A DNA stretch of 59,795 nt, taken from NCBI GenBank assembly GCA_003577105.1, contig QEUQ01000004.1, forward strand, positions 86,156 to 145,950, written 5' to 3'. Shown in pieces: positions 37,006 through 52,236 of the stretch. This stretch comes from Acidobacteriota bacterium. Its GTDB lineage: Bacteria > Actinomycetota > Acidimicrobiia > ATN3. Numbering within the stretch: the first letter of the stretch is position 1; each line of letters starts with the position of its first letter. Position numbers and translations under genes: made by a program. The notes under the pieces were generated by a model. The model had not been told where the DNA came from. It did not search any database and worked only from the letters and a program-made list of their open reading frames with translations.

Positions 37006-38106
37006 TTATTTCAGGAACGAAGGAATATCGAGATCGTCGTCACTCTCGTCATCGCCCTCGAAGAGGCCCGCAAACTCTGATTCGCGCTTGGGGGTTTCGG
37101 TCTTCGGCGCCGACGGAATCTCATCGCGATCCCTCGTGACCGAGCGGGAAGCCCCCTCGAAACGCTCGAATCCAGCCGCGATGACCGTGACTCTGATCTC
37201 GTCTCCGAGCGCATCATCGATGACAGCACCGAAAATGATGTTGGCATCAGGATGCGCAGTCGAGGCCACGATCTCCGCGGCTTCGTTGACCTCGAAGAGC
37301 CCCAGATCGGACCCACCCGAGATGTTGAGGAGAATCCCTCTGGCGCCTTCAATGGAAGATTCGAGTAGCGGCGAAGATATCGCGCCACGCGCTGCTGCTG
37401 CAGAGCGACCCTCTCCGCTTCCGTGACCAATACCCATCAAAGCCGAGCCCGCGTTGCTCATCACCATCTTCACGTCCGCGAAGTCGAGATTGATCAGGCC
37501 AGGGGTGGTAATCAAATCAGTAATGCCCTGCACGCCCTGGAGCAAGATCTCGTCAGCCATCTTGAAAGCAGAGAGCATCGAGGTCTTCTCATCGGCAACT
37601 TTGAGGAGCCTGTCGTTGGGGATCACGATTAGCGTGTCGACCTTCTCGGTGAGCCGCCCGATGCCCTGCTCAGCCTGGACCGAGCGCCGACGACCTTCAA
37701 ATGCGAATGGGCGAGTTACGACACCGATAGTCAGGGCGCCTTGCGCCTTTGCGATCTCTGCAACCACCGGGGCGCCACCGGTGCCGGTCCCGCCTCCCTT
37801 GCCGGCGGTAATGAAGACCATGTCAGCCCCCCGGAGGACCTCCTCGATCTCCTCTGTGTGATCTTCGGCCGCCTGACGCCCCACTTCGGGGTCGGATCCA
37901 GCCCCGAGTCCGCGAGTCAGCTCACGGCCGATGTCTAGTTTCACATCGGCGTCGGACATCAAGAGAGCCTGAGCGTCGGTATTGATGGCGACAAACTCCA
38001 CTCCACGCAGACCGGCATCGATCATTCGGTTGACGGCATTCACGCCGCCTCCGCCGATGCCGACCACCTTGATGACGGCGAGGTAGTTCTGTGGATTGGT
38101 GGACAT
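37006..38106 (-). CDS. ftsZ: FtsZ cell-division GTPase
   Basis: 366 residues. The nucleotide-binding loop [13 protein letters not shown], tubulin signature [11 protein letters not shown] and T7 loop [11 protein letters not shown] are intact. The C-terminal domain is followed by a short linker and the terminal peptide [10 protein letters not shown], the docking site for SepF and FtsW. It polymerises into the Z ring at midcell. ATG 38106 has a GAAAGGGA site. Unlike its overlapping neighbours it has its own 208-base upstream region with a predicted promoter and two inverted repeats. Confidence 0.98.
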
Positions 38107-38135
38107 GGGGAAGTCCCTTTCTGGGCGCTCTAGCT

Positions 38136-38155
38136 GCGTAAATTCTCAATTACGC
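38136..38155 (-). repeat. inverted repeat in ftsZ leader
   Basis: GCGTAA (38136-38141) and TTACGC (38150-38155) flank an 8-nt AT-rich spacer, about 30 nt before the ftsZ start. It could form a weak hairpin in the leader or act as a protein site in DNA. Confidence 0.4.
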
Positions 38156-38169
38156 CAGTCTTGGCAAGT

Positions 38170-38196
38170 CTCTAACCCTCAACTTGAGGGTTAGAG
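38170..38196 (-). promoter_or_regulatory. 27-bp perfect palindrome upstream of ftsZ
   Basis: Two perfectly complementary 13-nt arms (CTCTAACCCTCAA and TTGAGGGTTAGAG) surround a single central base. It lies 64 bp upstream of the ftsZ start and about 20 bp downstream of the predicted transcription start. There is no T-tract, so terminator function is unlikely. It could be an operator for a dimeric regulator or a stable leader hairpin. Confidence 0.7.
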
Positions 38197-38223
38197 TTAT
38201 GTAAACCTAAACTGTCGGTCGAG

Positions 38224-38252
38224 ACTTTAGAACAGGTTGAGGAATGAGTCAA
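38224..38252 (-). promoter_or_regulatory. predicted ftsZ promoter
   Basis: Minus-strand TTGACT (38252-38247) and TAAAGT (38229-38224) are spaced by 17 bp, one of the best sigma-70-like matches in the window. Initiation near 38217 gives a leader of about 110 nt containing both inverted repeats. It would allow ftsZ expression separate from the long dcw transcript. Confidence 0.5.
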
Positions 38253-38314
38253 GCACCTCTCACCTGCATGTTTGTAACTTTCTTCCGCCCATTTGCTTGA
38301 ATTGCTTCAAGAAC

Positions 38315-39103
38315 TCACTTCGACACCGCCGGATTCTCCGGAGTTGTCACGTCCACATACCGCAAATTCCAGCGCTCTGCCTCGGCTTTTGCCTGTACGG
38401 CCCTCAGGGCCCTCCCCTTCTCCTCGATGCGGTCCACGCTCCCGACGTAGACCATCACGCCGTCAGTCGTGACGAGGAAAATTCCTCGTTCGCCGTAGCC
38501 CGCAGACTGAAATGCATGCTTACTCCAGCGGGAGAACTCCTCTGCTGCCATGCCTGCCCAGCCTGCCTTCTCGTTGGTGTCACCGACCTTCTGCGGGCCA
38601 ATTGCGCCGGTCAGATAGAACATGGTCGCCGGGGCAGTTTCAGTCATGGCCACTCCCACGCCGTCACGGTCAACTAGCAGAAAACTCCCTGCTTGCTCGA
38701 CATACGCGATCGGAGTCCGCTCGACCACGTCAATCACGACAGTTCTCCGCAGGTAGTCGGCACGCACCCGCGCATCGAGAACCAGGGGCGACGACCTGAC
38801 TCTCGCTGCTACCTCCGGAGTGTCGACAAAGACAAGTGGGCGACCTTCGGCATCGGCGAGAGCGGCAATGTCGTCGGCCTCCACCATGGCTACGCCTTGA
38901 ACGCGCACCGAAGCCACCCGCAGCGGAGGAGAGAGCAACAGGGCGACGGTGCCTGCGAGTACAAGAACTGCTAGCACCACCCTCCTTATGGTTCTCCAGC
39001 GCATCTGACGGCGGCGACGCTCGACCGACGCCCTTCTTTCGGCAATCTTGGCGTCAGCCTTGGCGGGCCCGTCATCTCTCGGAGCCTTGCGACGCGTTTT
39101 CAC
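38315..39103 (-). CDS. ftsQ: FtsQ/DivIB divisome protein
   Basis: 262 residues: a strongly basic cytoplasmic tail (1-40, RRRRQMRWRTIRR), one membrane helix (about 41-60), a POTRA domain (LRVASVRVQGVAMVEADDI) and the FtsQ beta domain (VIDVVERTPIAYVEQ). It links FtsL/FtsB-type proteins to the septal synthase. GTG 39103 overlaps the murB stop as GTGA and is preferred to an upstream in-frame start. The last gene before the ftsZ promoter region. Confidence 0.93.
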   Translation of the reverse strand: MKTRRKAPRDDGPAKADAKIAERRASVERRRRQMRWRTIRRVVLAVLVLAGTVALLLSPPLRVASVRVQGVAMVEADDIAALADAEGRPLVFVDTPEVAARVRSSPLVLDARVRADYLRRTVVIDVVERTPIAYVEQAGSFLLVDRDGVGVAMTETAPATMFYLTGAIGPQKVGDTNEKAGWAGMAAEEFSRWSKHAFQSAGYGERGIFLVTTDGVMVYVGSVDRIEEKGRALRAVQAKAEAERWNLRYVDVTTPENPAVSK

Positions 39104-40044
39104 TCGGCACCGCCAATCGCGGGCCACTCGGCAAACTCGCCGACCAGGCGAATTTCGGGCTCGAGTACTACTCCGGATCGCTCATACACCTCAAGGCGGA
39201 CCTTGCCAATTAACGATGAAATGTCCTCAGCCGTTGCTCCTTCGTTGGCCAGGAAGAAGTTGGCGTGCTTCGTCGAAACCTCTGCTCCACCCACCCGCAA
39301 CCCCTTGAGGCCGGACTCATCAATAAGACGCCCTGCGGAATCCCCCTCCGGATTCTTGAAAATTGACCCTGCGTTTGCGGCTCCGCCCGGCTGGTGCTCG
39401 CGCCTCCAACGGGTGATCTCGGCAAGCTCCTGGCGTAGTTGCTCAGGGTCTCCGCCGCTCAAGTTGAAAGTCGCCGCAGTAACAATCGCAGAGTCGGGAA
39501 GAGCCGATCTTCGATACGAGAGGCCGATCTCGCTCAGCGCTAGCTCTGAATCGGCACCGCCGAGATCGACAACGCAGATACTGCGAACTACGTCCTTGAT
39601 TTCACGCCCGTGCCCGCCCGCGTTCATCCTCACCGCCCCGCCGACGGAACCGGGTATCCCGACTCCGAATTCGATTCCCGCGAGACCCTGATCTGCGCAC
39701 CATCTCGCGAAGATCGGCAGCGGAGTAGCAGCACCCGCGGCCGCCCCACCCTCGACCGCCTTTGTCCAATTGAATCCGGGCCCGAGATGAATCACCAGTC
39801 CCGGAAATCCTTCCTCCGAGACAAGGAGATTCGACCCGCGGCCCACCAATAGGAACGGAACCTCGATCCCTTCAAGTGCAGCCTTGAGAAGCACGAGATC
39901 GCGATCGTCCGTCGGCTCGACGAAAAGCGCCGCACTTCCTCCAAGGCGGTATGTCGTTAGCGGGGCAAGTGGGTGCCTAGCCTCGATCAAGCCTCGGAAT
40001 TGCCCGCCAAGGCGGACGCCGATGTCTTCGAGCATCTCAGTCAT
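39100..40044 (-). CDS. murB: UDP-N-acetylenolpyruvoylglucosamine reductase
   Basis: 314 residues. It reduces UDP-GlcNAc-enolpyruvate to UDP-MurNAc using FAD and NADPH. Motifs: TTYRLGG, the FAD loop VGRGSNLLVSEEG, GVGIPGSVGGAVRMNAG and GSIFKNPEGDSAGRLID with the catalytic serine; the conserved ARG/TYR region is SYRRSAL. ATG 40044 overlaps the murC stop by 8 nt (ATGACTGA). Order murC-murB-ftsQ is typical of Gram-positive dcw clusters. Confidence 0.96.
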   Translation of the reverse strand: MTEMLEDIGVRLGGQFRGLIEARHPLAPLTTYRLGGSAALFVEPTDDRDLVLLKAALEGIEVPFLLVGRGSNLLVSEEGFPGLVIHLGPGFNWTKAVEGGAAAGAATPLPIFARWCADQGLAGIEFGVGIPGSVGGAVRMNAGGHGREIKDVVRSICVVDLGGADSELALSEIGLSYRRSALPDSAIVTAATFNLSGGDPEQLRQELAEITRWRREHQPGGAANAGSIFKNPEGDSAGRLIDESGLKGLRVGGAEVSTKHANFFLANEGATAEDISSLIGKVRLEVYERSGVVLEPEIRLVGEFAEWPAIGGAE

Positions 40045-51786: not shown

Positions 51787-52236
51787 CTAGTTCTCTGAGA
51801 CCTGCCGCTGCATCTGCTGAGCGAGGGTCTCGGCTATTTCCGGAAATGCCCCGTCGGCTTCCCTTGATACCCGTTCCCATTCCCTCGCATCCCAGATCTC
51901 GATCCGGTCGTCCATTCCGGCAATCACCACTTCTCGGGACAGTCCCGCGTAGTCACGCAGGTGCTCCGGGAGCGTGATCCGGCCTTGCTTGTCCGGCTTG
52001 TCCTCGTGGGCCTGGCCAAATGCGGCTCGCGAATAGAGGCGCACTCGGCGGTCCATCTTGGGGAGCGTCCGGATCTGCTCGGCATAGGCATGCCAGCCCG
52101 CGTCGTCGTAAAGGGCGAGGCATCGATCCTCACTCTTTGTGACAACACATCCGGGTTCGAGGCGCTCTCTGAATTTTCGAGGGAGAATGATTCTCCCTTT
52201 GTCATCCAAGGAGTGCCTGTACTCGCCAAGAAACAA
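51787..52236 (-). CDS. mraZ: MraZ, dcw-cluster transcriptional regulator
   Basis: 149 residues with two AbrB-like halves, each with the MraZ signature (HSLDDKGRIILPRKFRERL and DKQGRITLPEHLRDY). MraZ forms a ring and binds repeated TGGGN boxes before its own operon, usually as a repressor. The TTG at 52236 is chosen because it yields the canonical MraZ start (L/MFLGEYRHSLD); the longer frame adds 20 unrelated residues. Three TGGNG boxes with 10-nt spacing lie 45-69 bases upstream. First gene of the dcw cluster. Confidence 0.94.
   Translation of the reverse strand: MFLGEYRHSLDDKGRIILPRKFRERLEPGCVVTKSEDRCLALYDDAGWHAYAEQIRTLPKMDRRVRLYSRAAFGQAHEDKPDKQGRITLPEHLRDYAGLSREVVIAGMDDRIEIWDAREWERVSREADGAFPEIAETLAQQMQRQVSEN

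Follow-up and report, generated by a model that had tools for sequence, protein, structure and literature searches.

A 27-bp perfect palindrome between ftsQ and ftsZ, in a deep-branching assembly of the class Acidimicrobiia, very probably serves as operator for FtsR, a regulator of the MerR family that acts as a dimer and, judging from sequence comparison, would control the transcription of ftsZ. What computation gives is a site that matches the published FtsR motif, occurs once in the genome, is conserved before ftsZ in other genomes and keeps a locked distance from an upstream promoter (P1), together with an ftsR gene; from this we infer that the genome's own FtsR binds the dyad. The operator is an unusually perfect copy of the known FtsR site. 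The features concerned all lie on the minus strand of the window (the whole stretch of DNA that was analysed, 59,795 nucleotides):

37006-38106, minus strand: ftsZ, 366 aa, the presumptive regulated gene (open reading frame and family match)
38136-38155, minus strand: second inverted repeat, 6-bp stem with 8-nt loop (sequence and fold)
38168-38198, minus strand: 31-bp FtsR-type operator, here called site B, AACTCTAACCCTCAAGTTGAGGGTTAGAGAC (weight matrix and profile from relatives, direct match to published sites)
38170-38196, minus strand: 27-bp perfect palindrome (13+1+13), the core of the operator (sequence and palindrome statistics)
38200-38205, minus strand: TTTACA, with one base between it and the 31-bp operator downstream (survey of relatives; putative role)
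38203-38227, minus strand: site A, a candidate weaker FtsR-like site, AAGTCTCGACCGACAGTTTAGGTTT (2 mismatches to the 25-bp consensus)
38224-38229, minus strand: -10 element of P1, TAAAGT (promoter scan; 25 nt before the 31-bp operator)
38247-38252, minus strand: -35 element of P1, TTGACT (promoter scan; geometry conserved in relatives)
38315-39127, minus strand: ftsQ, 270 aa, the upstream gene (open reading frame and family match)

The palindrome reads CTCTAACCCTCAA-c-TTGAGGGTTAGAG from 38170 to 38196, or CTCTAACCCTCAA-G-TTGAGGGTTAGAG when written on the minus strand from 38196 to 38170. As the initial annotation had described, its arms (38170-38182 and 38184-38196, 13 nt each) are separated by one central base; they are 100% complementary, and no other perfect palindrome of the window is as long, the runner-up having arms of 9 (AGGGAGAATGATTCTCCCT, 52180-52198). 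The same annotation had drawn attention to TTGACT-N17-TAAAGT (38252-38224), which is indeed the only promoter-like site that either strand of 38100-38330 contains (expected number 0.1), to a gap of 208 bases between ftsQ and ftsZ, which runs from 38107 to 38314, and to the overlap of the other genes of the cluster, which holds for the genes upstream of the gap. The palindrome lies within this intergenic region, the position required of an FtsR operator, downstream of TAAAGT (38229-38224) with 27 nt between the two (palindrome 38196-38170). The second inverted repeat that had been reported at 38136-38155 is present but unremarkable, and is probably incidental.

FtsR, a protein of the MerR family, was identified by DNA affinity with the promoter of ftsZ from Corynebacterium glutamicum, in which it activates this gene (PMC6683498, Kraxner et al. 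2019). Its site before C. glutamicum ftsZ (AACCCTAAAGTAAAGGTTGAGGGTA, established by ChAP-Seq and gel shift) is an imperfect 25-bp repeat whose position is -61 to -85 relative to the mapped start (PMC6683498). According to the same paper, the site of the Mycobacterium tuberculosis FtsR (Rv1828) before ftsZ (AACtCTAAgcctAtGGTTGAGGtTt) sits under the top Rv1828 ChIP-seq peak and falls between the -35 and -10 elements of the mapped ftsZ promoter (PMC6683498). When these two published sequences were scanned against the whole window on both strands, the best match to each was at 38198-38174, which shares 20 of 25 letters with the M. tuberculosis site (0.0015 expected per window) and 17 of 25 with the C. 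glutamicum site, for which the mirror register at 38192-38168 ties. The published 25-bp FtsR motif, with AACCCT-type half-sites 7 bp apart, fits site B in two registers that overlap. The resemblance to C. glutamicum extends to the gene controlled, the half-site WACCCTMRA, its 7-bp spacing and the location of ftsR beside garA/odhI (PMC6683498), but the window has a perfect dyad of 27 bp, or 31 bp with half-sites on both sides, and has it downstream of a recognisable P1. The runner-up among matches to the M. tuberculosis site, at 38227-38203 (17 of 25), is site A, which adjoins site B upstream and overlaps the -10 element of P1; it is weak in the profile search (E 0.9) and, judging from the consensus of the relatives, GTCTC.ACC ... 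AGGTTKACAT, may be conserved in part. The four half-sites at 6-bp steps, the weaker adjoining second site and the TTKACAT that abuts the operator are new details.

The FtsR ortholog of this genome is a protein of 241 aa (G000:C27, L006 1420-2145) that scores 233 bits against the NCBIfam model NF050798 (TF_FtsR_Actino, cut-off 150), and a PDB match to Rv1828 (5ydc, E 5e-8) covers its C-terminal half. The gene directly upstream has its best family match in OdhI, an FHA protein and homologue of GarA, with 152 bits against a model cut-off of 200, which it does not reach; ftsR is located downstream of a garA/odhI-like gene, the arrangement found in other actinobacteria. Pfam places two MerR_1 stretches in FtsR, one in the N-terminal and one in the C-terminal half, and these two halves could fit an operator with four half-sites. 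The gene 3' of ftsR (L006 2138-2776) resembles a phosphoribosyltransferase by eye; in other actinobacteria ftsR is followed by a bifunctional nuclease gene and then by a second MerR gene.

The initial annotation had proposed looking for the same palindrome elsewhere in the genome and before ftsZ of relatives: genome-wide, the core occurs just once even when 3 mismatches are allowed, whereas a palindrome-type site is conserved before ftsZ of relatives, including the only other genome of the same order in the comparison (L091). The nearest named ftsZ loci belong to the class Acidimicrobiia, and a search for relatives at the family and genus level returned the genome itself alone. The upstream regions of 80 named relatives, taken without reference to the motif, already show perfect palindromes that are built alike but spaced differently (for example, AACCCTCGACCTCAGGTCGAGGGTT in L041 and AACTCTCGACCTCGAGTCGAGGTCGAGAGTT in L013). 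Among 82 regions, with that of L091 read in the opposite orientation, pairs of WACCCTMRA half-sites occur at spacing 7 in 31 (1.8 in shuffled sequences), at spacing 13 in 21, and at the overlapping spacings 0 and 1 in 43 together; shuffled sequences give about 1 to 2. A 31-bp dyad whose half-sites recur every 6 bp, AACYCTMRACCTMRA-S-TYKAGGTYKAGRGTT, leaves just this signature of accumulation at 0-1, 7 and 13; the palindrome in the window is among the most symmetrical forms of the dyad.

A weight matrix built from 20 relatives, with its threshold at the 99% level of shuffled sequences, finds the motif before ftsZ in 58 of 82 Acidimicrobiia regions (the window included) and in 66 of 109 phylum-wide. 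Of 149 sampled genomes of the phylum, 139 have an FtsR that scores over the family cut-off. The motif is absent (0 of 4) from family f27, which lacks FtsR and in which all four scores fall between -13 and -17 bits, and the ratio of genomes with the motif to those without it is 65:34 where FtsR is present versus 1:7 where it is absent (Fisher P 0.005, uncorrected for kinship in a comparison confounded by clade). The matrix finds no site in 34 of 99 sampled FtsR-bearing genomes, among them families f4, f12, f23 and f29; there the motif has drifted, or else the targets of FtsR are different ones. The seed of the matrix was a consensus of the published motif and the window, a circularity that the shuffled sequences, the motif-free palindromes and the held-out genome search reduce as a concern but do not remove. 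In that search, a profile of 26 sites from which the window was left out picks one place in the whole 2.87-Mb genome, the palindrome, at 27 bits and E 1e-5, with the next match at E 4.3 and no other below E 4. Two other matches to the 25-bp motif with at most 2 mismatches, considered as further FtsR targets in the genome, were set aside: both are inside coding sequence, one in a sugar-epimerase-like gene (L092) and the other in a parA-like gene (L094).

The position of the operator relative to P1 is also conserved. Of 124 sites, 63 have a TTGAC/TANNNT promoter (spacer of 17 or 18) at a fixed distance upstream of the operator (0.6 expected from shuffled sequences), the gap being 20-28 nt and mostly 25 or 23; the spacer of 17 and gap of 25 in L091 are identical to those of the window. 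Across the same set of sites the distance from operator to start codon ranges from 21 to 235 nt. Fixed distance to the promoter together with varying distance to the start codon indicates that the site is tied to transcription initiation and not to an RNA leader. Furthermore, 41 of 124 sites have TTGACA with at most one mismatch (mostly TTKACA) placed so that a single base separates it from the operator downstream, versus at most 5 sites for any other position, and this placement, along with the fixed distance from P1, ties the element to the promoter. The genomes of family f31, judged to be mycobacterial, have TTGACAT abutting the site where the window has TTTACAT. TTTACA (38205-38200) is possibly the -35 element of a second, FtsR-dependent promoter, or else an outer half-site; no -10 element is conserved 3' of the operator in the survey of relatives, which makes the downstream promoter uncertain. 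A search of the open-access literature for mapped ftsZ starts found none.

In the mechanism that we propose, a dimer of FtsR would bind the 31-bp dyad just downstream of P1, a promoter of the housekeeping type. Our best guess at the sign of its effect, by analogy with C. glutamicum, is activation, and the activated start would be located just downstream of the operator, with TTTACA serving as its -35 element in an arrangement like that reported for M. tuberculosis. FtsR on the operator would cover the early transcribed region of P1 and may therefore also dampen P1, which is equally conceivable, so that FtsR would act as a switch between two ftsZ starts. As in the classical MerR spacer operators of MerR, CueR and SoxR (PMC9909328), a dyad is predicted to receive a MerR-type dimer, and TTTACA-N19-GAGGGT would make a long spacer of 19 bp, the classical dyad being placed between -35 and -10 elements 19-20 bp apart; unlike in those operators, the centre of the dyad is off the centre of the spacer, and the candidate -10 element, GAGGGT, is poor. 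More speculatively, and rather doubtfully, the region may represent an ancient actinobacterial composite in which P1, with a weak FtsR site across its -10 element and start, is followed by a strong dyad of four half-sites that has its own -35 element; FtsR, both halves of which are like a MerR DNA-binding domain, would switch between the two starts and read up to four half-sites 6 bp apart.

Alternatively, the effect of FtsR binding may be to repress P1, or to form a roadblock to it, instead of activating a second promoter, a possibility worth retaining although we think it unlikely: the operator is located downstream of the predicted P1 start at a fixed distance, the classic position for repression, and site A overlaps the -10 element, but FtsR activates ftsZ in C. 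glutamicum and the M. tuberculosis site is inside a mapped promoter.

That the dyad serves a different MerR-type regulator, or an unrelated one, is improbable. The genome encodes further MerR_1 proteins, and half-sites of MerR-family operators can resemble one another; nevertheless, the dyad matches a demonstrated FtsR site of this same gene, FtsR is near-universal in the phylum, as the spread of the motif requires, and the family that lacks FtsR also lacks the motif.

A role of the palindrome at the RNA level, as a hairpin that forms in the 5' leader of transcripts from P1 and affects stability, translation or attenuation, is highly improbable. P1 is conserved upstream, and a 12-bp stem would form in the transcript (-18.3 kcal/mol for the 27-mer alone), but mirrored positions are Watson-Crick in just 54% of cells among 102 sites of relatives, G-U mismatches show no excess over A-C (135 versus 114, P 0.20), as expected of a DNA operator, and the site keeps its distance from P1 while its distance from the start codon varies. 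There is no terminator-like run of T and no Rfam match, and no conserved paired RNA structure of the kind expected of an attenuator or riboswitch was found. Of the two functions for ftsZ between which the initial annotation had left the choice, the operator is therefore upheld by the published FtsR motif, the FtsR gene and the fixed promoter distance in relatives, whereas the hairpin is disfavoured by the lack of wobble bias, the often imperfect arms and the independence of the start codon. The 12-bp stem in the transcript of this particular genome may have side effects. Chance is a negligible explanation: although about 0.14 perfect palindromes with arms of at least 13 are expected in the whole genome, the expectation is 0.003 for the window and 1e-5 for the 208-nt gap, and conservation, with recovery of the palindrome by a profile made from other genomes, refutes it.

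The literature that was searched contains no description of an FtsR operator before ftsZ in Acidimicrobiia. Identification of the palindrome as the operator of FtsR would explain its presence before ftsZ, and would extend FtsR control of this gene from the class Actinomycetes, where it has been described, to Acidimicrobiia, with an operator that is locked to a conserved upstream promoter across the phylum. The geometry of P1 and operator offers a concrete and testable frame for the action of FtsR, which the work on C. glutamicum left open.
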